A stretch of DNA of 45,676 nucleotides from IMG/VR virus record IMGVR_UViG_3300020417_001760, positions 1 through 45,676 of that record. One strand, 5' to 3'. The notes beneath the pieces are model-generated. The model was not told the DNA's origin, did no database searches, and saw nothing but the letters and a program-made list of their open reading frames with translations. Below, one piece after another: positions 4,550 to 32,812 of this stretch. Each line of letters opens with the position of its first letter. The first letter of the stretch is position 1. Source of the stretch: a virus. Made by a program: the position numbers and the translations under genes.

Positions 4550-4903
4550 ATGAATAAAACTATTTTCTGTGACATAGATGGTACTCTTTTAAAACATCAC
4601 GGAGGGTTGTACCCAATTACACAAGAAAAACCAGAACTTCTGCCTAATGCTATTGAGGCGATAGTATCTTGGAAAAATAAAGACTATAAAATTATTCTAA
4701 CTACTGGTCGTCCAGAAAGCATGCGTAAATTAACTATAGATCAATTAAATACTACCGGTATTTTTTACGATATGTTAATTATGGGTTTACCTAGAGGGGA
4801 AAGAATTGTTATTAATGATTGCAAGCCCGATAGAACTAGTACAGCCAAAGCGATAAATGTTCCAAGAAATTCTGGCTTTACAGCAGAGCATTTTATACTA
4901 TAA
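4550..4903 (+). CDS. HAD-family phosphatase of capsule/sugar type
   Basis: At 117 residues this is a minimal HAD phosphatase. The nucleophile and acid motif DIDGT is at residues 8-12, motif II is TTGR at 51-54, and motif IV is IVINDCKPD around 87-93. It lacks a cap domain. Small HAD enzymes of this kind are common in capsule and LPS loci next to nucleotidyltransferase/kinase genes and remove phosphate from sugar phosphates. Here it lies just before a cupin and a fused nucleotidyltransferase-kinase, so it could take the GmhB role of removing the 7-phosphate from heptose 1,7-bisphosphate, although classical GmhB is larger (about 190 residues). The promoter of the downstream genes overlaps its 3-prime end. 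Confidence 0.75.
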   Translation: MNKTIFCDIDGTLLKHHGGLYPITQEKPELLPNAIEAIVSWKNKDYKIILTTGRPESMRKLTIDQLNTTGIFYDMLIMGLPRGERIVINDCKPDRTSTAKAINVPRNSGFTAEHFIL

Positions 4904-4904
4904 T
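4877..4904 (+). promoter_or_regulatory. Sigma70-like promoter before the sugar genes
   Basis: TTTACA (4877-4882) and TATAAT (4899-4904) are separated by 16 bases, a near-consensus sigma70 promoter. The -10 lies in a perfect 16-base palindrome, CTATAATATATTATAG (4898-4913). Transcription would begin near 4911, leaving a short leader with a GAGAGGA ribosome site before the cupin ATG at 4935. It suggests that the sugar-nucleotide genes can be transcribed by host polymerase apart from the upstream glycosyltransferases. Confidence 0.5.
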
Positions 4905-4934
4905 ATATTATAGCAAATAACAAGAGAGGAAAAT

Positions 4935-5411
4935 ATGTCTAAATACGACCATGTATCTGATGATTGGGTCAGAGAAGCCTTAGAAGAATATAAAGATAAA
5001 ATAGATGCCAACAAATCACACGCATTAGATGTAAGTTCATATCAAGTAGACAAGCCTTGGGGTTACGAAGTATGGCTAGAGCTAAATGAATTTTATGCTT
5101 ATAAAATTATTTTTATGAAAGCTGGTAATAGAAGTAGTTTGCAATCACATGAAAAAAAGATAGAGACTAATTTTGTAATTGAAGGGGAAGCAGAAGTTAT
5201 TCTGGAAAAAGAAGATGGGACATTGGAAAGCAAAGTGTATAAAGCGGGAGAAGGTTGGTGTGTACCTGTAAATAGAAAACATAGGGTATGTGCAGTTACA
5301 GATTATAAAGCATTAGAGTGTTCTACTGCTCACCTCAATGACTGCATCAGATTCCAAGACGACAGCAACAGAGAAAGCGGTAAAATTCTTTCTGAACATC
5401 AGCCTAAGTGA
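4935..5411 (+). CDS. Cupin, mannose-6-phosphate isomerase-like
   Basis: The 158-residue protein is a single cupin domain preceded by a charged helix. The stretch PWGYEVWLE, metal-ligand candidates around Q70/H72/E77 (LQSHEKKIET), the FVIEGEAEV strand, a second cupin motif with H near 120, and a final region DDSNRESGKI match type II phosphomannose isomerase C-terminal domains and relatives annotated as sugar-phosphate isomerases in phages. It is the first gene after the 4877 promoter and has a good ribosome site (GAGAGGA). It may isomerise a hexose or heptose phosphate feeding the nucleotide-sugar genes that follow. The exact substrate is not evident. Confidence 0.75.
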   Translation: MSKYDHVSDDWVREALEEYKDKIDANKSHALDVSSYQVDKPWGYEVWLELNEFYAYKIIFMKAGNRSSLQSHEKKIETNFVIEGEAEVILEKEDGTLESKVYKAGEGWCVPVNRKHRVCAVTDYKALECSTAHLNDCIRFQDDSNRESGKILSEHQPK

Positions 5412-5415
5412 TAAA

Positions 5416-6969
5416 ATGAAGGTATGCTTATTATCTGCTGGTCGAGGCACTAGAAATTCTAGTATTAAAGGACTTCATAAAGCTCTATTACCCATAGAGA
5501 ACAAGCCTGCTATATCTCATATTATTGATAAAATTCCTGACAGCATAGATGTTATTATAGCAGTAGGTTATAAGGCCGACCAAATTAAAACCTACATTAA
5601 TGAGATTCATCCTACTCGGAATATAACATTTGTTGATGTCGATAATTATGATGGTGAAAATTCTGGCCCCGGCTATAGCTTGCTTTGCTGCGAACCTTAT
5701 CTTCAAGAACCATTTGTTTTTACTTCGATTGATACTATCATAGAAGAAGACTACCCATATATGGAATGTACCTATGATTGGATAGGAGCGTCTGAAATAA
5801 ATGAAGATTGTTCCGACAAATATTGTTTAATAGATTCTGATGCTCATGGACATTTAAGAAAATTATATTATGGTAAGGGTACTTATGCCTATACAGGTAT
5901 TGCAGGTATATATGACTATGATCAGTTTTGGTATAGTTTAAAAAATCCTAAGATTATTAATAATGAATATCAGGTGATTAATGGATTTGATGGGTTAAAT
6001 CTACAAATCTTGAAATGTACTTGGTATGATATAGGCAACAATGAGTCATACAATGAAGTAAGAAAGAAGTTCCACAAAGAAGTAGTTGCCAATAAAAATA
6101 ATGAAGCATTATTAATAGATAATAATAAAGTTACAAAGTTTTTTGATGACACTAATAGGGTTAAGCAACGACTTGAAAGGTGTGCATTTATACCCAATAC
6201 TAATATTAGGCGTATTAATGACAATATGTATTCATATGATTATATCAAAGGACATATGCTTTCAGATGTTTATGATGAACGTATTTTACTACAGTTTTTA
6301 AATTATTATATAAAAAACTTTTATGAGCATAAGGGTACTAAAGATGATAATTTTATATCTAACTGTAAACTGATGTATGAACAAAAGACAATCAATAGAC
6401 TAAGACCGTTGTTTGATAGTGATCTAGATAGAATAGATTACATTAATGGCATAAAGGTAAAGCCCGCACAACAGCTTTTAAAAGATATAGATTGGATTAG
6501 CATATATGATAAAGCAAAACCTGTAAGATTTCATGGAGATTTACAGCCAGAGAATATACTTTATGATAGAGAAAGACATCAGTTTTCTGTGATTGATTGG
6601 AGAGAATCTTTTGGATCTAGCATGGAATTTGGAGATACTTACTATGATCTCTCTAAGCTATACCACGGCCTATTGATTAATGGAACAACAATCATGCAAG
6701 GTCATTACAACTATAACATAATAGATGAGTCTACTGCAGAAATTAGTTTTATGATTAAGAACAATTTGTATAATCTAAAAAATATATTCAAACAATTTTG
6801 TGAAACTCATAATTTTTGTTGGCAAAACATAAAATTACTAGCGATAGTACACTATATGAGTATATGTAATTTATATAGTGATTTTGATAACAATAGATAC
6901 GGCAACTTTTTGTTTTTATATAGTAAATATTTATTGTCTAAATGGGAGAGTGATAATGTTTTATCTTGA
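5416..6969 (+). CDS. Fused sugar nucleotidyltransferase and APH-type kinase
   Basis: I start at ATG 5416, four bases after the cupin stop; an in-frame ATG at 5338 would overlap the cupin gene by 74 bases. The 517-residue product has two domains. Residues 1 to about 230 are a nucleotidyltransferase with the loop SAGRGTR (7-13) and KALLPI (22-27). Residues about 280-500 form an APH/choline-kinase fold with the Brenner-type motif HGDLQPEN (373-380) and the metal motif DWRES starting at D394. This pairs kinase and NMP transfer in one chain, like separate AmgK and MurU, or the unrelated fused HldE for heptose. It could turn a sugar phosphate into an activated NDP-sugar. The nucleotide used is unknown. 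Confidence 0.8.
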   Translation: MKVCLLSAGRGTRNSSIKGLHKALLPIENKPAISHIIDKIPDSIDVIIAVGYKADQIKTYINEIHPTRNITFVDVDNYDGENSGPGYSLLCCEPYLQEPFVFTSIDTIIEEDYPYMECTYDWIGASEINEDCSDKYCLIDSDAHGHLRKLYYGKGTYAYTGIAGIYDYDQFWYSLKNPKIINNEYQVINGFDGLNLQILKCTWYDIGNNESYNEVRKKFHKEVVANKNNEALLIDNNKVTKFFDDTNRVKQRLERCAFIPNTNIRRINDNMYSYDYIKGHMLSDVYDERILLQFLNYYIKNFYEHKGTKDDNFISNCKLMYEQKTINRLRPLFDSDLDRIDYINGIKVKPAQQLLKDIDWISIYDKAKPVRFHGDLQPENILYDRERHQFSVIDWRESFGSSMEFGDTYYDLSKLYHGLLINGTTIMQGHYNYNIIDESTAEISFMIKNNLYNLKNIFKQFCETHNFCWQNIKLLAIVHYMSICNLYSDFDNNRYGNFLFLYSKYLLSKWESDNVLS

Positions 6970-7588
6970 TTTAGTTGCTTTGTACAAAAAAGAATCCTCA
7001 GAAAGATTCTATCAAATTGATAATGAATTAATTTGTAAATTTATAGAGATTATATTTGAAGCCTATGAAAAAGAAAAGACAATATTTGTAGCTGGCAATG
7101 GTGGCACCGCAGGATACTTGCAAAATTTTGTTGTAGATTTCAATATGCATCCTTTTGTGTCTGACGATAAAAGCAAACCAAGTAATATAAAAAGAAATAA
7201 ATTTAAGTGTGTCAACTTGTGTGCTGATCAAGCCACTATAACAGGTATAACTAATGATTTAGGATACGAAAATGTGTATTTAGAGCAATTAAAGTATCAG
7301 CTTAAAGAAGGAGATGTTTTTATCGGAATGTCTGGTTCTGGTAACTCTAAAAATATTGTAAATGCTATGCAATATTGTGTATCTAATAATGCAAAGACGG
7401 TTTTACTTACTAGGAATCAGGAAAATAAATGTAATGAATATGCTGATTTATGCATTTCTTTAAATGGTAAATCATATTTTCCAGGACAAACAGGAGGTAA
7501 TAATAATAATTTTCATTTCGAAGATATTATTTCTAAATTAACGCATTTGGCTTGCGGAGTAATTAAACAAAGGATACAAAATGCTTGA
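6956..7588 (+). CDS. SIS-domain isomerase, phosphoheptose isomerase-like
   Basis: The start at ATG 6956 has GGGAGAG (6944-6950) five bases upstream and overlaps the previous gene by 14 bases; this gives 210 residues. The SIS sugar-phosphate site is clear: GNGGTAG at 47-53, then a TxxTGITNDLGYE segment near 94-105, and SGSGNSKN at 126-133, all laid out as in GmhA, which converts sedoheptulose 7-phosphate to D-glycero-D-manno-heptose 7-phosphate. At the C terminus one histidine of the GmhA HxxxxH pattern seems to be Ile (FEDIISKLTH), so activity on exactly that substrate is uncertain. The next two genes encode transketolase, the enzyme that makes sedoheptulose 7-phosphate, which favours a heptose role. 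Confidence 0.75.
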   Translation: MFYLDLVALYKKESSERFYQIDNELICKFIEIIFEAYEKEKTIFVAGNGGTAGYLQNFVVDFNMHPFVSDDKSKPSNIKRNKFKCVNLCADQATITGITNDLGYENVYLEQLKYQLKEGDVFIGMSGSGNSKNIVNAMQYCVSNNAKTVLLTRNQENKCNEYADLCISLNGKSYFPGQTGGNNNNFHFEDIISKLTHLACGVIKQRIQNA

Positions 7589-8348
7589 CCCAAATAAGCT
7601 TAGAATTAAAGTTTTAAATATGGTATATCAGAAACAATCTGGCCATATCGGTGGTAGCTTTTCTATTGCTGAACTTATTAGCATACTTTACAATAACTAT
7701 GACATCAATGGTAGAGATAAATTGATATTATCTAAAGGCCATGCAGTACCAATCATATATGCGGCATTGCATGAACTAGGTAAGATATCCGATGAAGATT
7801 TAAACCTGTTTAGAGAAATCAATTCACCGCTACAAGGACATCCAGATAAATTAAGACTGCCAGTACTAGATGCAACTACTGGATCTTTGGGTCAAGGTCT
7901 TAGCATAAGCATAGGACACGCTTTAGCACAAAAAATTAAAGATAAACATGGTACTGTATTTTGTATACTGGGTGATGGAGAGATACAAGAAGGACAGGTG
8001 TGGGAAGCACTTATGTATGCTCCTAAAGAAAACCTAAATAACTTAATTTGTTTTATTGATTACAATGGAGGACAAAGTGAAGGTTCTCCAGATGATATAA
8101 TGCCCATATATAAAAATTTACAAGAAAAAATTTCTGCTTTTGGTTGGCACTGTCAAAATGTGGACGGTCACAATTTAATACGATTAAGTGATGCTATAAA
8201 AACGCCAAGTAAAAAACCCAAATGTATAATTCTTAATACAATTAAAGGTAAGGGTGTTTCTTTTATAGAAGAAGGTAGATGGCATTCATCTATCCCTAAC
8301 GAAGAACAATATAATTTAGCACTTAAAGAACTGGAAGCATTACTATGA
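7581..8348 (+). CDS. Transketolase N-terminal subunit (ThDP-binding)
   Basis: At 255 residues this is the PP (diphosphate-binding) half of transketolase as a separate protein. It contains SGHIGGS with His22, LSKGHA, GSLGQGLS, the ThDP motif GDGEIQEGQ from G131, and IDYNGG where the Asn ligand is expected. Split transketolases are known in archaea, some bacteria and secondary-metabolite clusters. With the next gene it would transfer two-carbon units between sugar phosphates, yielding for example sedoheptulose 7-phosphate. It overlaps the SIS gene by eight bases and the C-terminal subunit gene by four (ATGA), so 1:1 coupled translation is likely. Confidence 0.9.
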   Translation: MLDPNKLRIKVLNMVYQKQSGHIGGSFSIAELISILYNNYDINGRDKLILSKGHAVPIIYAALHELGKISDEDLNLFREINSPLQGHPDKLRLPVLDATTGSLGQGLSISIGHALAQKIKDKHGTVFCILGDGEIQEGQVWEALMYAPKENLNNLICFIDYNGGQSEGSPDDIMPIYKNLQEKISAFGWHCQNVDGHNLIRLSDAIKTPSKKPKCIILNTIKGKGVSFIEEGRWHSSIPNEEQYNLALKELEALL

Positions 8349-9280
8349 AAGCAACAAGAGAAGCTATCAAAGATGTTTTACCTTTGATGGGTGAGATTAA
8401 TCAAGACATTGTTGTATTAGATGCAGATATAGGAGGAGCCACAAGACTAGCTTCGTTCGGTAAAAAATTTCCGAATAGATTTTTTCAAATTGGAATTGCA
8501 GAAGCTAATATGATAGGCATATCTTCGGGATTGGCTGAACATGGATTCAAAGTATTCTTGGGATCTTTTTCTTCTTTCCTAACTGGCAGATATGATATTA
8601 TAAGATGCAGTTTAGCTTATTCAGAATCACCTGTAATACTAGTAGGCTCTCATGTGGGTATGGCTATCGGTAAAGATGGTGTCACTCAAATGGGTTTAGA
8701 AGATGTAAGTATTATGAGAGCATTACCTAATATGACAATATTAAATCCGGCTACATATACTGAGGCTGTAGAGATTGTAAAGTATTTATGTAACAATCAA
8801 ATTAATGGTCCACATTATTTAAGGATTGGTAGACAACCAGTAGAAGACCCCATATCTGAACTGGACTATACTTTTGAATTTGGTAAAGGTTATCAAATAT
8901 CTGATGGTAAAGATATTACTTTATTTACAACAGGCTGTGTTTTATCCGACGTACTAAAAGCAAAACATAAGATAGAGTCTGATACAGATTTAACCGTAAG
9001 AGTAATTAATTTTCATACACTTAAACCAATAGACAAGCAGATTATAGCTACAGCCGCAAAAGAAACGAAACACCTATTTTCTGTAGAAGATCATTCTGTA
9101 ATTGGTGGTCTTGGTTCTATAGTAGCAGATGTCTTATGTGAAACCAAGCCTCAAAAGCTGATTAAACTTGGACTACAAGATCAATTTCCTGAATCTGGTC
9201 CTCCAACAGAACTATATGAAAAATATGGTTTAACTGCTGATAAGATTTGCGAAAAGGTATTAAATCATGTTGATAGATAA
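8345..9280 (+). CDS. Transketolase C-terminal subunit
   Basis: The 311-residue product holds the pyrimidine-binding domain and the C-terminal domain of transketolase. The catalytic glutamate that activates the ThDP aminopyrimidine ring is E53 in FQIGIAEANMIGISSGLA; GSHVGMAIGKDG and a transketolase-C region (about 190-305, with FHTLKPID) follow. It is close to full length for a split subunit. Together with the preceding gene it forms a complete enzyme, so the pair should be active and not a remnant. Its 3-prime end overlaps the AroE-like gene by 14 bases. Confidence 0.9.
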   Translation: MKATREAIKDVLPLMGEINQDIVVLDADIGGATRLASFGKKFPNRFFQIGIAEANMIGISSGLAEHGFKVFLGSFSSFLTGRYDIIRCSLAYSESPVILVGSHVGMAIGKDGVTQMGLEDVSIMRALPNMTILNPATYTEAVEIVKYLCNNQINGPHYLRIGRQPVEDPISELDYTFEFGKGYQISDGKDITLFTTGCVLSDVLKAKHKIESDTDLTVRVINFHTLKPIDKQIIATAAKETKHLFSVEDHSVIGGLGSIVADVLCETKPQKLIKLGLQDQFPESGPPTELYEKYGLTADKICEKVLNHVDR

Positions 9281-9896
9281 AGACACAAAATTATATTGTA
9301 GTTTTGCTAGAGTTGCAGGTAGTACAGGATGTGCGTTCCATAATGCTGGTTTTAAAAAGCACAATATTAATGCTATATATAAATCTTTTTCTGTACGTGA
9401 TATATATGATGCGGTACAATGCATGCGAGTTTTAGATATTAAGGGTGCTGGTGTTACCATGCCTTATAAAACAGATGTGATACGTTTTCTGGACGATGTA
9501 GATCAAACTGCCCTAGATATCAATGCATGTAATACTCTGATTAATAATAATGGTAAAATTAAAGGATATAATACAGACGTCCAATCTGCAATAGATTATT
9601 TACAGCCTTTAGAACTAAAACACTTAGTAGTACTGGGTAGTGGAGGTTATGCTAAAGCTGTTATTAGGGCTTGTAGAAAATTGGATATTGATGTAAAAAG
9701 AATTGTCAGAGAGAGCTGGCACCAACTTCCAGAGGTAAAAAATCATACAGTATTTAACTGTACTCCTGTAGAAAATATTAAACTTCATGAATCAAATAAA
9801 TTTATTGATTGTATAGCTACTACTCCAACAGGAAAAATATTAGCAGATAAACAAGCAGCTTATCAATTTAAATTATATACGGGTATAGATTATTAA
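9267..9896 (+). CDS. Short shikimate dehydrogenase-like (AroE family) enzyme
   Basis: The 209-residue protein keeps the AroE hallmarks: GVTMPYK with the catalytic Lys at K68, NT at 89-90, GYNTD with the catalytic Asp at D104, an NADP loop GSGGYAKA at 124-131, and a C-terminal KQAAYQFKLYTG that mirrors the conserved QAA helix. Two differences stand out. It is about 60 residues shorter than normal AroE, mostly in the cofactor domain, and the N-terminal SxS substrate motif is altered (VAGSTGCAFHN). It should be an NAD(P)-dependent polyol dehydrogenase, but the substrate may not be shikimate since no other shikimate gene is near. Its placement after transketolase suggests a role in the sugar pathway. 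Confidence 0.75.
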   Translation: MLIDKDTKLYCSFARVAGSTGCAFHNAGFKKHNINAIYKSFSVRDIYDAVQCMRVLDIKGAGVTMPYKTDVIRFLDDVDQTALDINACNTLINNNGKIKGYNTDVQSAIDYLQPLELKHLVVLGSGGYAKAVIRACRKLDIDVKRIVRESWHQLPEVKNHTVFNCTPVENIKLHESNKFIDCIATTPTGKILADKQAAYQFKLYTGIDY

Positions 9897-10589
9897 ATGA
9901 AAATATATTACAGAATAAGTGATACAGGATATAATAAAGTTAAGCCTGATTATATTAATAATGAAAATTGCTTAAGTAATTTTTGCAAGCACTTTTCAGA
10001 TTGTGACATAACTATAATTGCAGATAATATCTCTGATAATACATATGACATGATTTGCAAATATACTAAGGAATCTAATATAACAAATGTTTATGAAGGA
10101 AACGGTGCTGCTACTTTTAACATAGCATTGACTGAAGCATTAAAACTAAATGACAGTGAATCTGTGTACTTTGTAGAAAATGATTACATACATCTGCCTA
10201 ATAGCTGTAACGTATTACAAGAGGGTTTAGATTTTGGAATAGCATATGTAACCCTATATGATCATCCAGATAAATACTTAGATCCAAGTCTTGGAGGAAA
10301 TCCTTACTGTCAAGGCGGTGCAGAAAATACTAAAGTTTTTTTAACTCACTCTACCCATTGGAAAATTACAAATTCCACAACTATGACTTTTGCCGCAAGA
10401 GTCGAGACTCTACGCCAAGATGAAGAAATATTAAGACGCTGGACTAGTGATACACATCCACATGACTTTAAAATGTTTATCGAACTAAATCAAAAAGGCA
10501 GAAATATTATATCTCCTATTCCTAGTTATGCTACTCATGGAGAAACAAAATGGTTATCTCCTTTAGTAAACTGGAGGAAGAGTGTTTAA
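9897..10589 (+). CDS. Glycosyltransferase-like protein (GT-A type)
   Basis: The 230-residue product looks like a viral GT-A protein. A strand/helix start (YYRISDTGYNKVKP), the strand ITIIADN, and the acidic motif YFVENDYIHLP (END at 94-96) in the DxD position are followed by a C-terminal half with SYATHGETKWLSP. I recall proteins of this type in large phages and algal viruses within glycan clusters, but have no named family. It starts directly after the AroE-like stop and overlaps the next gene by eight bases. Confidence 0.5.
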   Translation: MKIYYRISDTGYNKVKPDYINNENCLSNFCKHFSDCDITIIADNISDNTYDMICKYTKESNITNVYEGNGAATFNIALTEALKLNDSESVYFVENDYIHLPNSCNVLQEGLDFGIAYVTLYDHPDKYLDPSLGGNPYCQGGAENTKVFLTHSTHWKITNSTTMTFAARVETLRQDEEILRRWTSDTHPHDFKMFIELNQKGRNIISPIPSYATHGETKWLSPLVNWRKSV

Positions 10590-11220
10590 ATTTGATTATG
10601 ATATTAACAAGTTTAATTTTAGTAAAATATTGTCATCGCTATTCGAAGTAGATAATTTAGAAAATATTAGTAGCGATATATCTGTATTAGATAGACCTCA
10701 CGATCAGTCTACTGTCCACCACAAGAAGTTTTACTCATGGATGAAAGAGTCAGAATTTCCTCTACTCTACGAAAGTTTTATAAAACAATATGTAAGACCA
10801 CTATATAAAACTAAAATAGTTGTACAGCAATATCCGACATTTAGAATATGTTATCCTAATAATGTAGCTATAGGCGAGTATCATAAAGATAAACACTATA
10901 GAGATAGTAATTGGGCAGAACAAGTACAAGAACTAAATTTCTTTTTGCCCTTTACAAATGCTTTTGATAGTAATACTATATGGGTAGAGTCAGAAGAAAA
11001 TAAAAAAGATTTTTCTGCTATGGAATGTAATTATGGTGAATGTATACGTTGGGATGCGTCTAATTTAACTCATGGTAATAAAATTAATACAACAGGTAAA
11101 AGTCGTGTGAGTATTGATTTTAGAGTAATAGCATATGATAATTATATTCCTAGTGACACAGGATCTATTAATCACAATATAAAATTTAAAATAGGAGAGT
11201 ATTACAAACTATATGATTAG
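10582..11220 (+). CDS. 2-oxoglutarate/Fe(II) oxygenase-like protein, StrG-like
   Basis: The 212-residue protein carries a possible Fe(II) facial triad: H101 and D103 in GEYHKDKHY, and H164 in LTHGNK, followed by R175 in TGKSRVSIDFRVI, which would bind 2-oxoglutarate. The spacing and the strongly conserved-looking SRVSIDFR ending resemble StrG-like proteins of streptomycin-type pathways and other phytanoyl-CoA-dioxygenase-fold enzymes. It could hydroxylate or oxidise a sugar or a protein side chain that is later glycosylated. It overlaps genes on both sides by eight bases and lies between two glycosyltransferases. Confidence 0.6.
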   Translation: MFKFDYDINKFNFSKILSSLFEVDNLENISSDISVLDRPHDQSTVHHKKFYSWMKESEFPLLYESFIKQYVRPLYKTKIVVQQYPTFRICYPNNVAIGEYHKDKHYRDSNWAEQVQELNFFLPFTNAFDSNTIWVESEENKKDFSAMECNYGECIRWDASNLTHGNKINTTGKSRVSIDFRVIAYDNYIPSDTGSINHNIKFKIGEYYKLYD

Positions 11221-12001
11221 CGTTATTATACCTACACTAAATACTCCTACAGCTTTAGATCTGTGTTTAGAATCTGCAATCGAAGGCCAAAATCAGTTAA
11301 ATGATATTGTTGTAGTTGTTGATGGTCACTTTAATATTAATGAAAAGGTTTTGGCTAAATATGCTGGTAAGATACATGCACTAGTATTGGATCAAAATGT
11401 AGGCACTTCCAAAGCTGCAAATTTTGGTGTGTATGCTGCCCAACATGATAACATCTTAATTGTCAATGATGATAATGTATTTCCTAAAGATTGGGATACT
11501 ATATTGTCAAAAATAGATTTATCTAATTGTGTGGTTGCACCCAATCAAATAGAACCATATAATAGTATATTCCACCAATTTCACATACATGATTTGGGTA
11601 GGACAATCGAGGATTTTGACTTGAATAAGTTTTGGGAGTACGAAAAATCTTTACGTCAAGATATGATTGAATATACAGGATCAACGTATCCTATATATAT
11701 AGACAAATTTAATTTTTTAAGGTGTGGAGGTTTTGATAGTGATTATCCCGGTAAGCCCGGTATGGTAGCAGATTGGGAGCTTTTTATGAAATGTGAAATG
11801 AATGGATTAAAAATGCTAAGAACTTATCAATTGTATTTTTACCATTTTGTTTCTATATCACATAAGACTCCCGAACGCATCGCAAAATCACAAGAAGATG
11901 AACAAAAGTGTCACCTATTTTTTAAACATAAGTGGGGGCAATTTGCGCAACATAACCCATTGAACAATTCTAAACTATTAACGAGGGAAAAAAATGCCTA
12001 A
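11213..12001 (+). CDS. Family 2 glycosyltransferase
   Basis: This is a clear GT2 enzyme of 262 residues. It starts ISVIIPTLNTPTALDLCLES, has the strand IVVVVDG for the nucleotide site, LDQNVGTSKAANFGV, and the metal-binding NDDN at 85-88. Later come a FLRCGGFDSDYPG acceptor-loop motif and ADWELFMKCEMNG with the ED-like base region. The C terminus resembles enzymes of cell-surface polysaccharide synthesis. Its final bases, including AGGG, lie upstream of and overlap the dehydratase gene start by eight bases. Confidence 0.85.
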   Translation: MISVIIPTLNTPTALDLCLESAIEGQNQLNDIVVVVDGHFNINEKVLAKYAGKIHALVLDQNVGTSKAANFGVYAAQHDNILIVNDDNVFPKDWDTILSKIDLSNCVVAPNQIEPYNSIFHQFHIHDLGRTIEDFDLNKFWEYEKSLRQDMIEYTGSTYPIYIDKFNFLRCGGFDSDYPGKPGMVADWELFMKCEMNGLKMLRTYQLYFYHFVSISHKTPERIAKSQEDEQKCHLFFKHKWGQFAQHNPLNNSKLLTREKNA

Positions 12002-12998
12002 AACAATTTTAGTCACAGGAGCAGCAGGTTTTCTAGGTTCTCATTTTGTAGAAGAACTATTAGTTAATACTGATTGGAACATTGTATGCCTTTGTAGGTT
12101 AACTTATGTAGGTGATTTAGAAAGACTATTAGATAGTTTACATGTTAAACAACATGCAGATAGGGTTAAATTAGTCTATCATGATTTAAAATTTGATATC
12201 CCTCCTCATATTGAAGAATCCATTGGTAATGTAGACTACGTTGTGCATATCGCTGCTAATAGCCATGTAGATCGTAGTATTGTACATCCTAAACAATTCT
12301 TTGAAGATAATGTAATGGGTACAGTTAATTTACTAGAATGGTATAGAAAAACTAATCCTAGTGCTTTGTTTATTAATTATCTAACCGATGAAGTTTTCGG
12401 TCCCGCACCAGACAATTACGACTTTAAAGAAGATGACAGATGGCGACCAAGCAATCCTTACAGCGCAAGTAAAGCTGGACAAGGGGCAGCAGGTATTGCT
12501 TATTGGAATACATATAATTTACCAATCATCAGTACCTATACAATGAATTTATATGGTGCTAGACAACACAAGGAAAAACTAGTAGCTAAAGCTATTGGTA
12601 AAATACATAATGATGAAATTATACCTATTCATGCTAAGATGGATGGAGATAAAGTTTTATATGTAGGACAACGACATTGGTTACACGCTCGTAATGCAGC
12701 TAATGCTACGTTATTCTTACTAAAACACGGTAAGCCGGGAGCACATTATAATGTTGTAGGAGACACAGAACGACATAATGATGATTTAGTTAAAGCTATT
12801 GCTGAATTGATGGGTAAAGAAGCACGAATACAATATGTAGATTGCGATAAAGCTAGACCGGGACACGACAAGAGATACAGTTTAGACGGTTCTAAACTTA
12901 GAGATATGGGTTGGCAGCAACCTATTGATTTCCAAACTTCACTACAAACCACAATTGAATGGATGTTAAATGATCAATCTAAAAAATATAGTTTCTAA
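11994..12998 (+). CDS. NDP-sugar 4,6-dehydratase (RmlB-like)
   Basis: The 334-residue protein is an extended SDR: NAD-binding GAAGFLGS at 9-16, TDEVFG at 131-136 and YSASK at 156-160. The Thr-Asp-Glu triad (T131, D132, E133) plus Y156/K160 is the signature of dTDP-glucose or GDP-sugar 4,6-dehydratases, separating it from plain C4 epimerases. It removes water from an NDP-sugar to form a 4-keto-6-deoxy sugar. Followed closely by an RmlC-like epimerase gene, it should make a modified 6-deoxy sugar; in the heptose reading it would correspond to a DmhA-type GDP-heptose dehydratase. The length is typical. Confidence 0.85.
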   Translation: MPKTILVTGAAGFLGSHFVEELLVNTDWNIVCLCRLTYVGDLERLLDSLHVKQHADRVKLVYHDLKFDIPPHIEESIGNVDYVVHIAANSHVDRSIVHPKQFFEDNVMGTVNLLEWYRKTNPSALFINYLTDEVFGPAPDNYDFKEDDRWRPSNPYSASKAGQGAAGIAYWNTYNLPIISTYTMNLYGARQHKEKLVAKAIGKIHNDEIIPIHAKMDGDKVLYVGQRHWLHARNAANATLFLLKHGKPGAHYNVVGDTERHNDDLVKAIAELMGKEARIQYVDCDKARPGHDKRYSLDGSKLRDMGWQQPIDFQTSLQTTIEWMLNDQSKKYSF

Positions 12999-13905
12999 AT
13001 CTTTAATCGGATTAGTGGCTACGCTTGATGATGTTCGTTCTGTACAACGAGCATGGGAATATGCTAAATACAATAGTGCTTGGCTAGAAGAATTCGATAC
13101 TATTATTTATAGCGTGAATGGAGACATAGATTATATCTCTAAATTTGGTGTTGAGATTGATAATATATTAAGAAAACCAACAGTTGAAATACTTGATAGT
13201 AAAAATTTAGGACATACCTTTGGTACGTTTGATAATGATAGAAAGATTTTTGACTATGCCAAAGACAAAGACTATGAGTATATCTGGAAATTTTCTGTAG
13301 ATACTATAGCCCAATCAAATATCTTTGATGTACAAATAGATGAGTCTAAAGATTTTTTCTACATCAACAATATAGGATACGCTGCTTTTGCAAATACCAG
13401 TAAAAAACAATTAATATCTCAAATTAAAGATAAATCATATTTTTATCCACAAACAAATTATTATATCATTAAAAATAAAATTAAAAACTGGCATCCTTCT
13501 TATAATGAAACAATAAGTCTTCGAGATAAATTTGCAGAAGAATATCATAAACAAAATAATCCTGGATTTACACCATGGGAAGCTATACCGGGTTGCGATT
13601 GCGAATCGATGCTAGTTAAAACTATTGAAGAAAATAACTTACAACCATATCATTTATTGTCCGATATTGAAACTAAAAATATAGTTAATTTTGTCTACAC
13701 ATATAAGGTTGGTGATGGAAGCCATAAAAATGTACAATATACTAATATAGGTGGGCTATGTCATTATCATGTCATTAACCATCCCGTAGCAACTATATTG
13801 CCTACTTTACAGAAATTTATTACAGAAGATGAATATAACGCTCTGCAAAAACAAAAAGAAAGCGTAAAAGCAAATGATAAAGTTACACTCGACCATAATC
13901 CCTGA
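12970..13905 (+). CDS. Glycosyltransferase-like protein of unknown family
   Basis: The 311-residue product starts inside the dehydratase gene (29-base overlap) and has no exact family that I recognise. The order of elements resembles a GT-A core: LIGLVATLDDVRSVQRAWEY, then IIYSVNG, a KNLGHTFGTFDN loop similar to the NxGxxxxxN region of GT2 enzymes, and YIWKFSVDTI with a VD-T acidic site. The C-terminal third includes HYHVINHP. I infer a divergent glycosyltransferase placed between the two nucleotide-sugar enzymes. It overlaps the epimerase gene by 32 bases. Confidence 0.45.
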   Translation: MINLKNIVSKSLIGLVATLDDVRSVQRAWEYAKYNSAWLEEFDTIIYSVNGDIDYISKFGVEIDNILRKPTVEILDSKNLGHTFGTFDNDRKIFDYAKDKDYEYIWKFSVDTIAQSNIFDVQIDESKDFFYINNIGYAAFANTSKKQLISQIKDKSYFYPQTNYYIIKNKIKNWHPSYNETISLRDKFAEEYHKQNNPGFTPWEAIPGCDCESMLVKTIEENNLQPYHLLSDIETKNIVNFVYTYKVGDGSHKNVQYTNIGGLCHYHVINHPVATILPTLQKFITEDEYNALQKQKESVKANDKVTLDHNP

Positions 13906-14362
13906 TTGTGTATGGATTGAGCCTAAAAAATTTGAAGATAATAGAGGTATATTTTGTGAAACCTTTAAAAGCTCATTTTTGCCTCATTTTAAACCTGTAC
14001 AAACAAACTATAGTTTCTCTAAAAAGGGTGTCTTACGAGGCGTTCACAGAACTCCATATGCCAAATTAGTCACTTGTGTCAAAGGTAATGTATATGATGT
14101 TTGCGTGGATTTAAGACCAGATAGCCCAACCTATAACAATTATTTTGGTGTGGTATTGCATGAGACTGTACTTAATAGTCTATATATTCCTCCATACTGT
14201 GGACATGCTTTTATAGCTATGACAGATTCCGTGCTGGTTTATCAACAAGATCACGAATATGATAAAACTATGGACGAAGCATACTGTTATAATAACTATG
14301 ATATAAACTGGCCAATTGCTCCTACAATCATTTCTGATAAAGATAAAAACTGCTGTGACTGA
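13874..14362 (+). CDS. dTDP-4-dehydrorhamnose 3,5-epimerase-like (RmlC family)
   Basis: The 162-residue protein has the RmlC cupin barrel: FEDNRGIFCETF near the start, VLRGVHRTPYAKLV with the catalytic His at H58 and Lys at K64, IPPYCGHAF at 105-113, and a Q-D-EY region with Tyr129 that fits the catalytic tyrosine. It should epimerise C3 and/or C5 of a 4-keto-6-deoxy NDP-sugar made by the dehydratase two genes upstream. No RmlD-type reductase gene is seen nearby, so the final reduction may use another enzyme, possibly the AroE-like protein or a host enzyme. The start gives a 32-base overlap but fits the family N terminus. Confidence 0.85.
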   Translation: MIKLHSTIIPDCVWIEPKKFEDNRGIFCETFKSSFLPHFKPVQTNYSFSKKGVLRGVHRTPYAKLVTCVKGNVYDVCVDLRPDSPTYNNYFGVVLHETVLNSLYIPPYCGHAFIAMTDSVLVYQQDHEYDKTMDEAYCYNNYDINWPIAPTIISDKDKNCCD

Positions 14363-28457: not shown

Positions 28458-30335
28458 ATGAAAAAATATACTCCTTTACATGTACACAGCATGTATAGCT
28501 TATTGGATGGCTTATCTAAGCCAGAACAAATCGCTGCTCGTTGTCAAGAGATAGAAGCAACTTCTTGTGCTTTAACAGATCATGGTAATATAGCGGGTGC
28601 AATCAAGTTCTATACAGCCATGAAGAAAAAGGGCATTAAGCCTATCTTGGGTTGTGAACTATATATATCTGAACATGATGCTACTATTAAAGATAAAGAA
28701 AACAGATCTTTAACTCACTTTTTAGTATTAGCCAAAAATTATGATGGCTGGAAAAATCTTATTCGTATAGTTTCAGAATCTAATCGTCCAGAACACTATT
28801 ATCATAAACCTCGATTAGATCTTAATAAATTAGGTGAAATGATTGATGGTAACATGATAGGAATATGTGGCCATCTAGGTTCTACTCTTGCTAATAAGCT
28901 TGTAGAAAATGACACAATAATTTCCGATTGGAAAAAAGTTGGAACCAACTATATTAATCAATTTAAGGATATTTTTGGTAAAGACAATTTCTTTTTAGAA
29001 GCACAATTAATGGATAGAGACAATCTTGATGTTCAATCAAATCTAACTGACTGCATTAGAGAACTATCTCAACACACTGACACTAAAACTATTTGTACCC
29101 CTGACGCACACTATTGTCGTAAATCCGATGCTGTTGATCAAAGAATCTTGCTTTGTAATAATTTGAAAACTACATTTACAGAAATCAATCGTAAACTTAG
29201 TACAGATGAATCGGTACCTATGGGATGCTTTTTTACTTCTGATAACTATCATATTCTTTCACAGGAAGAAATTAGAGAGCTGCACACAGAAGAAGAAATA
29301 GAAAATACTAATTTAATAGATTCATTGTGCGAAGAGTATGACATTTTAAGTAAACCTAATCTTCCACCTTTTTCTTGTCCAGAAGGCTATGATGATGCTG
29401 AATACCTAAGACAACTATGTAGAGATGGATGGAAACAAAAAATTGCTAATGATGTACCAGAATCGGAACATTCAACATATGTCGATAGAATTAAATACGA
29501 ACTAGATGTGTTACAAGGTGCTGACCTGTCTAGCTATTTTTTAATTGTGCAAGATATAGTCAATCATGTTCGTGAACAAGGATGGTTGCCGGGGCCGGGT
29601 CGAGGTAGTGCTGCTGGTTGTTTAGTATCATATTTGATCGGTATTACAGACATTGACCCTATTAAATATAATCTGATGTTTGATAGATTTTACAATGCAG
29701 GACGTAATACTGCTGAACACATATCTATGCCTGATATTGATGTGGATGTACCTATCAATAAAAGAGAAAAAATTATCCAATATATCAAAGATAAGTATGG
29801 AGAAAATAAAGTTTCGCAAATGATTACCTTTAATACGATCAAGGGTAGGGGAGCACTTAAAGATGTTTTAAGGGTTTATGGTAATGTATCTTTTGCTGAA
29901 ATGAATGATATTACTAAAAACATTCCTGATGAAGCTAGGATTGCAGATCAATTACAGGAAATGAAAGAAGATACTGGAGAAGCATCAATTATTAGATGGA
30001 CATTAGAAAATAATTCGGATAAATTAAAAGATTGGTGTTCTGTAGATAAAAAAGGAGAACTGCAAGGACCACTTGCCAAACGCTTTGAACAGGCTATAAG
30101 ATTAGAGGGAGTTAAGTCTAATCAGTCTAAACACGCGGCTGGGATTGCTATTAGTTCTCAAGCACTAAGCGATGTGTGTCCTATGGTGTATGATTCAAAA
30201 AATAAACAAATGATTGCTGGCATGGAAATGCAAGACTTAGAATCGATTGGGATTATTAAGTTTGATATATTAGGAATAGCTATGCTAGATAAAATCATGA
30301 CAATTCAAGACCTACTAAAAGAGGAGACCATATAA
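28458..30335 (+). CDS. DNA polymerase III alpha, N-terminal half (PHP and palm)
   Basis: The 625-residue protein begins with a PHP domain (HVHSMYSLLDG at 8-18, then TDHGN) and continues through the polymerase palm: PGRGSAAG, MPDIDVDV with D426 and D428, and KFDILG with D603. These are the three catalytic aspartates of C-family polymerases, so the active site is complete, but the chain stops 22 residues after the third one. Fingers and later domains are on a separate gene at 31199-32812. The split point lies in the normally variable stretch between KFD-LG and FQLE. Translation is coupled to the next gene through a TAATG overlap. Confidence 0.9.
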   Translation: MKKYTPLHVHSMYSLLDGLSKPEQIAARCQEIEATSCALTDHGNIAGAIKFYTAMKKKGIKPILGCELYISEHDATIKDKENRSLTHFLVLAKNYDGWKNLIRIVSESNRPEHYYHKPRLDLNKLGEMIDGNMIGICGHLGSTLANKLVENDTIISDWKKVGTNYINQFKDIFGKDNFFLEAQLMDRDNLDVQSNLTDCIRELSQHTDTKTICTPDAHYCRKSDAVDQRILLCNNLKTTFTEINRKLSTDESVPMGCFFTSDNYHILSQEEIRELHTEEEIENTNLIDSLCEEYDILSKPNLPPFSCPEGYDDAEYLRQLCRDGWKQKIANDVPESEHSTYVDRIKYELDVLQGADLSSYFLIVQDIVNHVREQGWLPGPGRGSAAGCLVSYLIGITDIDPIKYNLMFDRFYNAGRNTAEHISMPDIDVDVPINKREKIIQYIKDKYGENKVSQMITFNTIKGRGALKDVLRVYGNVSFAEMNDITKNIPDEARIADQLQEMKEDTGEASIIRWTLENNSDKLKDWCSVDKKGELQGPLAKRFEQAIRLEGVKSNQSKHAAGIAISSQALSDVCPMVYDSKNKQMIAGMEMQDLESIGIIKFDILGIAMLDKIMTIQDLLKEETI

Positions 30336-30520
30336 TGAAACAGAAATTTAAAGACATTGCCGTTGGAACAATGTTTATGGATGGTGACCAAAAGTTGGTT
30401 AAAATTAATGATATTAGGGTAACATGTTGTAAAGTGTTTAATGCAACTAAATTTGATGACCCTAATCAAAAACATTTCATAGTACCTATTCATGAGGTGG
30501 AAGTTATAAAAAATGATTAA
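30335..30520 (+). CDS. Small hypothetical protein between polymerase halves
   Basis: The 61-residue product starts on the last base of the polymerase stop codon and overlaps the exonuclease gene by eight bases. It has a compact beta-strand pattern (VGTMFMDGDQKLVKINDIRVTCC, HFIVPIHEVEVI), perhaps a small SH3-like barrel. It has no known family. Its tight coupling on both sides indicates a real gene, possibly a subunit that helps join the split polymerase. Confidence 0.6.
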   Translation: MKQKFKDIAVGTMFMDGDQKLVKINDIRVTCCKVFNATKFDDPNQKHFIVPIHEVEVIKND

Positions 30521-31199
30521 TTATAATAAAATTTGCGTATTTGATTTTGAAACAGATGGAGTAAATCCAGAGGTTTGTAGTCCAGTGCAATTGGCTGCTG
30601 TTATGGTTGACCCTATGAAATTAGAGGTTATACCTAATTCTGAATTTAATATACATTTTAAACCAGAAACCATAGCTAAAGACCCAGATTATGAATATAC
30701 AACAGATGTGGTAGATTTTCACGCAAAGGTTGCTGGTTGTTCTAAAGCAGATATAATGGACAAGTGGAGAAGCTATCCTGCTCAAGAACATTCTTGGAAA
30801 ATGTTTGTAGACTATCTAGATAAATATCATACTAGATCCTCTAAGAAAAGTAAGTTTTCTGCACCGATTGCTGCTGGCTATAATATTTATAGATTTGATT
30901 TACCTATAATTGATAGATTGAGTAATAAATATGGTAACATTACTAAAGAAAAGAAAACAGATATATTTTTCCCCAGAGATGTTATTGATATTATGAATTT
31001 AGTTTTTTATTGGTTTGAACACAATGGAGAACTTAAAAGCTATACTCTTGATTCGCTAAGAGATTATTTTGGAATTTCTAAAGAAGGTGCTCATGATGCC
31101 CTAAAAGATATTCGTGATAGTGCGGAAGTTATGGTTCGTTTTATGAAATTACACAGAAAATTGGCAGCTAATATTAAGTTTAAGGATTCTTTTAAGTAA
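30513..31199 (+). CDS. DnaQ-family 3-prime to 5-prime proofreading exonuclease
   Basis: The 228-residue protein is a DEDDh exonuclease: D11 and E13 in FDFETDG, D129 in IYRFDLPI, H194 and D199 in GAHDALKD. These match the epsilon subunit of DNA polymerase III. It removes mismatched 3-prime ends as the phage polymerase moves. Remarkably its gene is placed between the two halves of the polymerase alpha gene, all four genes being translationally coupled, so a complex of three or four proteins is likely. Confidence 0.88.
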   Translation: MINYNKICVFDFETDGVNPEVCSPVQLAAVMVDPMKLEVIPNSEFNIHFKPETIAKDPDYEYTTDVVDFHAKVAGCSKADIMDKWRSYPAQEHSWKMFVDYLDKYHTRSSKKSKFSAPIAAGYNIYRFDLPIIDRLSNKYGNITKEKKTDIFFPRDVIDIMNLVFYWFEHNGELKSYTLDSLRDYFGISKEGAHDALKDIRDSAEVMVRFMKLHRKLAANIKFKDSFK

Positions 31200-32812
31200 T
31201 GGATAAATATAAATTTGATTGTGGATGTTCTTTTAGGGTTTTGTCTAAAGATCCTTTAAAAATAGATTTTGATCCAATTCACGATGACATTAATTTTAAT
31301 TGTAGTAAAACATGGGACTTGCTATCCGATGGTAATACTAAAGGTTGTTTCCAGTTGGAGACTAGACTCGGTAAGTCTATGTCTAAGAAACTAAAGCCAG
31401 AAAACGTAGAGCAACTTTCTGCTTTAATTAGTATTCTTAGGCCCGGATGCTTAGAAGCTATTAGAGATGGTAAAAGTGTTTCTAATCATTATATAGATAA
31501 AAAGAATGGTGAAGAATCTGTGGATTATTATCATCCTGCACTAGAGCCTGTATTAAAAACTACTTACGGCGAAATGATTTATCAAGAACAAGCTATGAAT
31601 ATTGCTAAACAAATTGCTGGTTTTAATTTGCAAGAAGCAGATAACCTTAGAAAAGCTATCGGTAAAAAGAAACCAGAAGAAATGGCTAAATTGAAAAAGA
31701 AATTTATTGCAGGTGCTAAAAAACTTAAAATAGTTAACTCCGATGAAGCTGAAGAAATCTTTGGATGGATTGAAAAAAGTCAAAGATATAGTTTTAATAA
31801 AAGTCATGCTGTCAGCTACGCATACAACGCTTACTTGTCAGCATATACCAAAGCGCATTTTCCTAAAACATTTTTTGCTTCCTATCTTAGATTTGCTAAA
31901 GATAAAATAGATCCAAAAGCAGAAATTAAAGCATTAATACAAAATGCTATGGAAATGGATATAAGCGTAGCTGTTCCAGATATTAGAAACATGAATCCCC
32001 TCTTTATTATGAAAGATCAACAAATTTATTTTGGTCTGACAGATGTAAAAGGTTTTGGAAATTCTGTATTTAAGAAACTTACCAATTTAGTATCAGAACA
32101 ACAAATTGATTTTAGTAAAATTACTTGGTGCGAACTGTTATTTAATATTTTACTGAATATTAACTCTACAGCAGCTAAGGCTTTAATTACTAGTGGTGGT
32201 GTGGATTTTGTAAAAAATACTAGAACCTCTATGCTTTTTGATTATAGCATAGCCAGTGAACTTACAAAAAAAGAATCAGAGTTCGTTATTAATAATTTAT
32301 CATCATGTAACAACCTGTATGAATGTATTTACAAATTATATCATGAGCATAAAATTACATCCCGCAGAAAAGATAAAGTTTTAGGTTTGCTAAATACTAT
32401 GGAAAATCCACCGTACTCTTTAGAAGATAGTCCTGAGTGGCTTTCTGACGCGGAAGAAACTTCTTTGGGTTGTAGTATTACTTGTTCTAAAGTAGATATG
32501 TATGATGTTACTATGACTAATTGCAATTGTAAAGAATATAAAAATACACTATTAAATGATATGATTATATGTGGAGAGATATCTAGTTTAAGTGTTACCA
32601 AAACTAAATCTGGTAAAAACCCTGGAGCAGAGATGGCTTTCGTTTCTTTATCTGATAGCTTCGGTATGATTGATAGTGTTATATTTTTTCCAGAAGCATA
32701 CAAACAATACAGAAATATACTATTTGACAACAATGTTATTATAGTCAAAGGTAATAAGAGTAGAAACGGAGACTCACTTATCGTCCAAAAGGCTTTTATA
32801 CCCAAAACTTGA
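31199..32812 (+). CDS. DNA polymerase III alpha, C-terminal half
   Basis: The 537-residue protein contains the fingers and following parts: GCFQLETRLG, RPGCLEAIRDGK, YGEMIYQEQAMNIA, and LRKAIGKKKPEEMAKLKKKF, all strongly conserved in bacterial alpha subunits. An OB-fold lies near the C terminus (about 450-530). The first 45 residues are not the usual alpha sequence: YKFDCGCSFRVLSKDP contains a C-x-C and may be an interface added after the split. It starts on the exonuclease stop (TAATG). The end is overlapped by the ssb promoter. Confidence 0.9.
   Translation: MDKYKFDCGCSFRVLSKDPLKIDFDPIHDDINFNCSKTWDLLSDGNTKGCFQLETRLGKSMSKKLKPENVEQLSALISILRPGCLEAIRDGKSVSNHYIDKKNGEESVDYYHPALEPVLKTTYGEMIYQEQAMNIAKQIAGFNLQEADNLRKAIGKKKPEEMAKLKKKFIAGAKKLKIVNSDEAEEIFGWIEKSQRYSFNKSHAVSYAYNAYLSAYTKAHFPKTFFASYLRFAKDKIDPKAEIKALIQNAMEMDISVAVPDIRNMNPLFIMKDQQIYFGLTDVKGFGNSVFKKLTNLVSEQQIDFSKITWCELLFNILLNINSTAAKALITSGGVDFVKNTRTSMLFDYSIASELTKKESEFVINNLSSCNNLYECIYKLYHEHKITSRRKDKVLGLLNTMENPPYSLEDSPEWLSDAEETSLGCSITCSKVDMYDVTMTNCNCKEYKNTLLNDMIICGEISSLSVTKTKSGKNPGAEMAFVSLSDSFGMIDSVIFFPEAYKQYRNILFDNNVIIVKGNKSRNGDSLIVQKAFIPKT

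Follow-up and report, generated by a model that had tools for sequence, protein, structure and literature searches.

The closest described counterpart of the genes considered here is the GDP-heptose pathway, which takes a ketose phosphate through a SIS isomerase, a C1 kinase, a distal phosphatase and a nucleotidyltransferase. The zinc ligands of its isomerase, GmhA (H64, E68, Q175 and H183 in B. pseudomallei numbering), occur in all orthologues and are required for activity; the Q175E form is inactive (PMC5705639). A cassette that follows the logic of this pathway lies at positions 4550–9896 of the IMG/VR virus record IMGVR_UViG_3300020417_001760, a 45.7 kb fragment of a marine phage (45,676 nt) that we analysed whole and refer to as the window. 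It departs from the pathway in four respects: the kinase is of the APH type and is fused to the nucleotidyltransferase (the fusion is hereafter NT-APH), the zinc site of the SIS protein differs, the unit holds no DmhA-type dehydratase, and there are an extra dehydrogenase, a cupin and a transketolase. We consider it probable that the cassette is a phage-encoded modular pathway that remodels a ketose phosphate into a rare sugar and activates it.

The order of the genes – HAD phosphatase, cupin, NT-APH, SIS protein, transketolase N-terminal subunit (TKN), transketolase C-terminal subunit (TKC), dehydrogenase – recurs in about 15 other IMG/VR viral contigs, at protein identities of 42–90%. Conservation of a seven-gene order to this extent is far beyond chance. 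Among the loci compared, which carry L-numbers, the HAD gene is placed after the dehydrogenase in L004, L022 and L031, and the transketolase pair is inverted in L035. The small HAD phosphatase (4550–4903, plus strand, 117 aa; Pfam Hydrolase_3, 35.5 bits) belongs to the unit in the majority of cassette loci. A KdsC-like HAD substitutes for it in L028 (TIGR01670, 72.7 bits, below cut-off), lying there between the TKC and dehydrogenase genes, in L033, which is similar, and in the bacterial loci L094–L096. L028 and L033 retain the cupin, SIS, transketolase and dehydrogenase genes, but their NT-APH comes from another lineage.

Neighbourhoods were counted over 64 contig clusters in which NT-APH has 4.5 kb or more of sequence on either side, relatedness being left uncorrected; the loci had been recruited by NT-APH, SIS, cupin and dehydrogenase queries. 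An RmlB homologue lies within 6 kb of NT-APH in 10 of the 64 and an RmlC homologue in 5. RmlB and RmlC are thus not part of the conserved cassette, although both are encoded in the window. This bears directly on the original prediction, which named HAD, NT-APH, SIS, TKN, TKC, RmlB-like and RmlC-like genes, ordered them all into one route and looked to related phages for the same arrangement. Every one of those genes is present, by Pfam and NCBIfam matches, and the stretch from HAD to dehydrogenase is indeed a conserved block; RmlB and RmlC are not kept with it. The gene set was also incomplete, since the dehydrogenase at 9267–9896 had been overlooked and the cupin at 4935–5411 left unused.

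Among 50,697 named phage records, NT-APH is found in a single one. Full-length NT-APH was recovered from 3 of several hundred bacterial genomes, a small sample; because the phylum-wise searches drew mostly on one and the same set of genomes, the result carries no taxonomic claim. The bacterial loci L094–L096 combine NT-APH and a KdsC-like HAD with either ribulose-phosphate 3-epimerase (RPE) and a SIS protein or a GatZ-like protein and a cupin; they also hold glycosyltransferases, methyltransferases or a flippase. A search of 345 bacterial genomes for the SIS family, at E <= 1e-35 and with no positive control, yielded no member, and a single-sequence search of IMG/VR with a transketolase subunit gave no match.

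NT-APH (5416–6969, plus strand, 517 aa) joins an N-terminal nucleotidyltransferase (NTP_transf_3) to a C-terminal APH-type kinase; the start, the ATG at 5416, was chosen by fit to homologues. The motifs GxGTR, DT, WxDxGN, HGD(x4)N and DWR are nearly invariant in 44 relatives, and the third of these resembles the motif of sugar-1-phosphate nucleotidyltransferases. The nucleotidyltransferase domain also bears a weak similarity to CTP:inositol-phosphate cytidylyltransferase. The kinase domain belongs to neither of the GDP-heptose pathway types, HddA (GHMP) and HldE (PfkB). LicC-LicA type fusions and AmgK/MurU likewise pair a nucleotidyltransferase with an APH-type kinase, on different substrates, and are of use here as a lead only; neither gave a strong sequence match to NT-APH. 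The NT-APH proteins of loci that carry transketolase (TK-type loci) form one clade of 13 rows with support of 100/100, outside which the L028 and L033 rows fall.

The cupin (4935–5411, plus strand, 158 aa; MannoseP_isomer, 33 bits) resembles the C-terminal domain of mannose-6-phosphate isomerase and is 58–90% identical across TK-type cassettes. In 34 of the 64 loci the NT-APH polypeptide exceeds 600 aa, and the cases inspected (L118, L140, L157, L115 and L121) are cupin-NT-APH fusions of about 635 residues. Because they are fused in relatives, cupin, nucleotidyltransferase and kinase appear tied to a single job, in which the cupin is possibly an isomerase or epimerase.

The dehydrogenase (9267–9896, plus strand, 209 aa; Shikimate_dh_N, 64.8 bits) is a compact, AroE-like, NAD(P)-dependent enzyme. 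Its predicted model (pLDDT 94.5) finds its best fold match in HI0607 (1npy) and also matches 5-ketofructose reductase (7cok/7col). With the shikimate dehydrogenase family it shares the fold, the catalytic lysine and aspartate (K68 and D104, corresponding to AroE Lys65 and Asp102, present in all sequences), N89, Q196 and the NADP arginine R148. It differs in that its nucleotide-binding domain has some 60 residues fewer and in lacking Ser14 and Ser16 of AroE, which hold the shikimate carboxylate: in every sequence these are replaced (T20, F or W at the first position, C22 or A at the second). The score against NCBIfam aroE is 93 bits, the cut-off being 200. Since the catalytic and NADP residues are kept and the carboxylate serines lost, the protein most likely acts on a keto or hydroxy sugar with NADPH as cofactor. 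An IMG/VR search with the dehydrogenase returned 113 relatives, of which 80 were kept, and nearly all of the kept loci adjoin NT-APH. A place in the shikimate or aromatic pathway was rejected on the loss of the carboxylate serines. A C7-cyclitol pathway, prompted by the company of transketolase and AroE, was likewise set aside, visual inspection of a number of loci having revealed no sugar phosphate cyclase gene. Our literature search found no paper that treats shikimate dehydrogenase as an auxiliary metabolic gene of phages.

The transketolase is divided between TKN (7581–8348, plus strand; Transketolase_N, 126.8 bits), which carries the diphosphate domain for thiamine diphosphate (ThDP), and TKC (8345–9280, plus strand; Transket_pyr and Transketolase_C), which carries the pyrimidine and C-terminal domains. 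The nearest solved relative is the split transketolase of Carboxydothermus hydrogenoformans (6yak for TKN, 6yaj for TKC), with which it has in common the two-subunit layout and a complete ThDP site. In TKN, H22, H54, H87, GDG131–133, N162 and H235 are invariant; TKC retains R5, E53, H103, D111 and R163. Every residue tested for ThDP binding, metal binding or catalysis is kept in 13 phage N halves and, apart from the distant L075, in the phage C halves (13 of 14); the phage enzyme is therefore likely to be active. Two positions are altered relative to E. coli: H473 is Q115, a glutamine found also in the bacterial split transketolases of L006 and L007, and S385, the phosphate-contacting serine, is alanine (A32), as it is throughout the TK-type phage clade. 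It is this alanine that sets the phage clade apart from the Carboxydothermus enzyme. The nearest bacterial split transketolases lie in unrelated, ordinary gene contexts. L033 carries two different transketolase pairs on one phage contig, at 2–1199 and 10660–12386. The original prediction had thought it new for a phage to carry transketolase for making the precursor; phage transketolase as such was reported from ocean viromes in 2013 (PMC4053976).

The SIS-domain protein (6956, an ATG, to 7588, plus strand, 210 aa) resembles sugar-phosphate isomerases, and the original prediction had called it GmhA-like. Structure comparison upholds the likeness as far as the fold is concerned: the predicted model (pLDDT 90) has GmhA as each of its top 23 PDB matches. 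The best sequence families are also GmhA models, at about 67 bits, although the score of 66.9 is well under the NCBIfam gmhA cut-off of 209, a mark that many bacterial GmhA-like genes miss too. The phosphate-binding serines and one zinc histidine are shared. The metal site is not. All four zinc ligands are invariant in the 15 bacterial GmhA proteins fetched, whereas a profile alignment places N57, D61, E189 and H197 at these positions in the phage protein, the last three in 16 of 16 sequences and the first replaced by H in the distant L075. Three of the four ligands are thus exchanged (H to N, E to D, Q to E), and there are two insertions besides. Membership of the GmhA family was rejected on this site in spite of the fold; the protein may still act as an isomerase, on another substrate or through a different kind of metal site.

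The supply of sugar phosphate to this machinery can be compared among loci. GatZ-like proteins occur in 51 of the 64 loci and transketolase with SIS in 13: 49 have GatZ only, 11 transketolase only, 2 both and 2 neither, so that the two are almost mutually exclusive in a count uncorrected for relatedness. The commonest order among dehydrogenase-recruited loci is cupin-NT-APH, dehydrogenase, GatZ/KbaZ-like protein, HAD. The GatZ/KbaZ family, a member of which has been shown in E. coli to be a fructose-6-phosphate C4 epimerase (PMC11907403), is that of the alternative supply protein of sister phages; the window has no member. Residues matching the zinc site of E. coli GatZ (Asp, two His and Glu; PMC11907403), paired by motif and spacing, are invariant in 75 of 75 sequences, and the Pfam cut-off is passed only by the bacterial forms (39.9 and 29.1 bits) and L075. 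A third form of supply, RPE (219.9 bits, above cut-off) with a different SIS protein, is seen in L076 and in the bacterial loci L089 and L094. All three come from families that edit ketose phosphates, by C4 epimerisation (GatZ), C3 epimerisation (RPE) or C2 transfer (transketolase). Loci of the TK and GatZ types are intermingled on the dehydrogenase tree, which requires no fewer than five switches of supply type; the closest neighbours of the window's own protein are the TK-type L020 and the GatZ-type L114. Supply module and NT-APH would appear to change together, as expected if they have a common substrate, while the dehydrogenase serves both. Because in other phages and in bacteria it is fed by GatZ/KbaZ-like or RPE modules, NT-APH is not inherently heptose-specific.

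Two loci combine these genes with genes resembling heptose-pathway kinases. L075 (8022–16899) holds on one phage locus a cupin, a GatZ-like protein, a KdsC-like HAD, NT-APH, a SIS protein, a distant transketolase pair and a gene resembling the HldE kinase (TIGR02198, 91 bits against a cut-off of 345). The marine virus AG-345-E15 (L002:11308–19208) has HAD, cupin, NT-APH and GatZ-like genes, to which are added genes for an HddA-like kinase (281 bits against a cut-off of 600), an HddC-like protein and an SDR.

Our reading of the cassette as a modular rare-sugar pathway rests on the fact that the supply families all edit ketose phosphates and that HAD, kinase and nucleotidyltransferase look like a set that moves phosphate from a distal carbon to C1 and then activates the sugar. 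The split transketolase would remodel a central ketose phosphate by C2 transfer, and the SIS protein would interconvert the resulting ketose phosphate and an aldose phosphate. The APH domain would phosphorylate C1, the HAD enzyme take off the distal phosphate and the nucleotidyltransferase add a nucleoside monophosphate, with the cupin joining NT-APH as an isomerase, epimerase or mutarotase. The dehydrogenase would use the NADPH couple to reduce or oxidise a keto or hydroxy group of a substrate that has no carboxylate, and the neighbouring glycosyltransferases would use the finished nucleotide sugar. Gene content, conservation, catalytic residues, folds and the exchange of supply modules are all directly observed. 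In favour of the reading are also the conserved gene order, the intact transketolase site, the SIS fold, the NT-APH motifs, the fusions with the cupin, the near-exclusivity and repeated switching of supply types, and the bacterial relatives whose loci hold glycosyltransferases and a flippase. Several points nonetheless count against the proposal. The near-exclusivity of GatZ and transketolase comes from loci uncorrected for kinship and recruited in part by SIS and cupin queries; phage GatZ-like proteins mostly have a weak Pfam score or none; the SIS protein, with three of the four GmhA zinc ligands gone, may have changed its chemistry or may not work as a heptose isomerase; no heptose pathway so far known has a step assigned to the dehydrogenase; and we infer, rather than observe, the order of steps, the substrates, the cofactor, the nucleotide and the final sugar.

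A stronger form of the proposal is that phages of aquatic bacteria possess an undescribed plug-and-play system, in which the cupin, the nucleotidyltransferase and APH kinase, HAD, and a miniaturised sugar oxidoreductase of the shikimate dehydrogenase fold form an unchanging core that is coupled to interchangeable ketose-phosphate editors (a GatZ-like C4 epimerase, or transketolase plus SIS). At least one nucleotide sugar foreign to all known pathways would result. To this proposal we give a chance not far short of even.

As for the product, a C7 sugar made via sedoheptulose 7-phosphate is the likeliest single outcome of the transketolase–SIS form, an assignment we hold tentatively and at somewhat under an even chance. 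The corresponding pathway, a sub-case of the modular proposal that dispenses with RmlB and RmlC, would have transketolase and SIS deliver an aldoheptose 7-phosphate, to be activated by APH, HAD and nucleotidyltransferase and modified by the dehydrogenase, with RmlB and RmlC serving a separate dTDP-hexose. The co-inheritance of transketolase and a GmhA-fold SIS protein (13 of 64 loci), and their co-segregation with a distinct NT-APH clade, fit a different sugar, of longer chain than that of the GatZ version, and L075 couples a related transketolase pair to its HldE-kinase-like gene. Yet the SIS zinc site is altered, the kinase family is not one known for heptoses, the S385 equivalent of the transketolase is alanine, and the enzyme could equally supply C4, C5 or C6 ketoses. 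On balance the sub-case is a possible one that we would not back at even odds.

A polyol or alkyl-phosphate pathway is unlikely. Here the ketose from transketolase and SIS would be reduced to an alditol by the dehydrogenase and coupled by NT-APH to give an NDP-alditol, like CDP-ribitol or CDP-glucitol. The fold of the dehydrogenase does include a sugar reductase, 5-ketofructose reductase; the weak similarity of the nucleotidyltransferase domain to the inositol-phosphate enzyme points the same way; and a cytidylyltransferase and an NADPH reductase are known to make CDP-6-D-glucitol (PMC10918830). The presence of phosphatase and kinase together speaks instead for a shift of phosphate from a distal carbon to C1. 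The WxDxGN motif, too, is closer to those of sugar-1-phosphate nucleotidyltransferases.

Less probable still is the original proposal in its full form, a single GDP- or dTDP-(6-deoxy)heptose route running through transketolase, SIS, NT-APH, HAD, RmlB and RmlC in sequence. That transketolase makes the GmhA substrate and that the SIS fold is GmhA-like are in its favour, and the isomerase, kinase, phosphatase and nucleotidyltransferase activities of Campylobacter are all represented (PMC10680097). With a probably active transketolase added to these four, the notion survives of a phage route dedicated to processing a ketose phosphate; the single heptose route is not supported. The SIS protein has changed zinc ligands, among them the Q to E exchange that inactivates GmhA (PMC5705639), the kinase is of the wrong type, the conserved dehydrogenase is left without a place, and L002 has HddA-like and HddC-like genes besides its own NT-APH set, so that the two pathways are not the same.

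Also against the full route are RmlB and RmlC, which sit 2–4 kb beyond the cassette among glycosyltransferases and had been cast as heptose dehydratase and epimerase. The RmlB-like 4,6-dehydratase (11994–12998, plus strand) keeps its TDE and YxxxK motifs (TDEVFG at 131, YSASK at 156) and scores 254 bits as a dTDP-glucose 4,6-dehydratase (TIGR01181, cut-off 365), against 50 as a GDP-mannose 4,6-dehydratase (GMD). DmhA is a GMD-like dehydratase, and the RmlB-like protein is not of that type. The RmlC-like 3,5-epimerase (13874–14362, plus strand) scores 135.8 bits with TIGR01221 (cut-off 155.8); the GDP-6-deoxyheptose pathway has an RmlC-like C3/C5 epimerase of its own, MlghB, and the family does not by itself name the substrate. 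Both proteins score as dTDP-hexose enzymes, and a heptose route that takes them as one unit with the cassette was rejected on these scores and on their non-conservation.

That transketolase and dehydrogenase are auxiliary metabolic genes that, in the infected cell, raise flux through the pentose phosphate or shikimate pathway and have no link to glycan synthesis is very improbable: phage tkt genes have been read in that way before (PMC4053976), but the transketolase pair and dehydrogenase are fixed inside a glycan-precursor cassette with frames overlapping SIS and NT-APH, shikimate carboxylate recognition is lost, and dehydrogenase-recruited loci show the opposite of the free-standing genes, away from NT-APH, that would speak for it.

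Elsewhere in the window are genes for ribonucleotide reductase, PhoH, a UvsX-like recombinase, helicase, primase and DNA polymerase. The cassette itself, whose reading frames mostly overlap, is flanked on both sides by glycosyltransferase genes. Beyond its downstream end, 10582–11220 weakly resembles NCBIfam SpoChoClust_2 (40 bits against a cut-off of 150), a 'sporadic carbohydrate cluster' 2OG-Fe(II) oxygenase. DNA polymerase A is divided between two open reading frames (28458–30335 and 31199–32812) that align to consecutive portions of a single PHROG profile; a gene for an exonuclease subunit (30513–31199) separates the two. Two large open reading frames, 42663–45659 (minus strand) and 301–1959, have no PHROG and no Pfam match.

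If our reading of the cassette as a modular rare-sugar pathway is true, viruses carry a defined, swappable pathway for building sugars, whose candidate substrates are open to in vitro assay. Within the shikimate dehydrogenase fold, its dehydrogenase would be a small representative that has probably turned to sugars as substrates. The interchangeable supply modules amount to a natural experiment for inferring substrate from genome context, and their exchange suggests that phages diversify the glycans they make themselves – whether on virions, DNA or host surfaces – by the swapping of modules.

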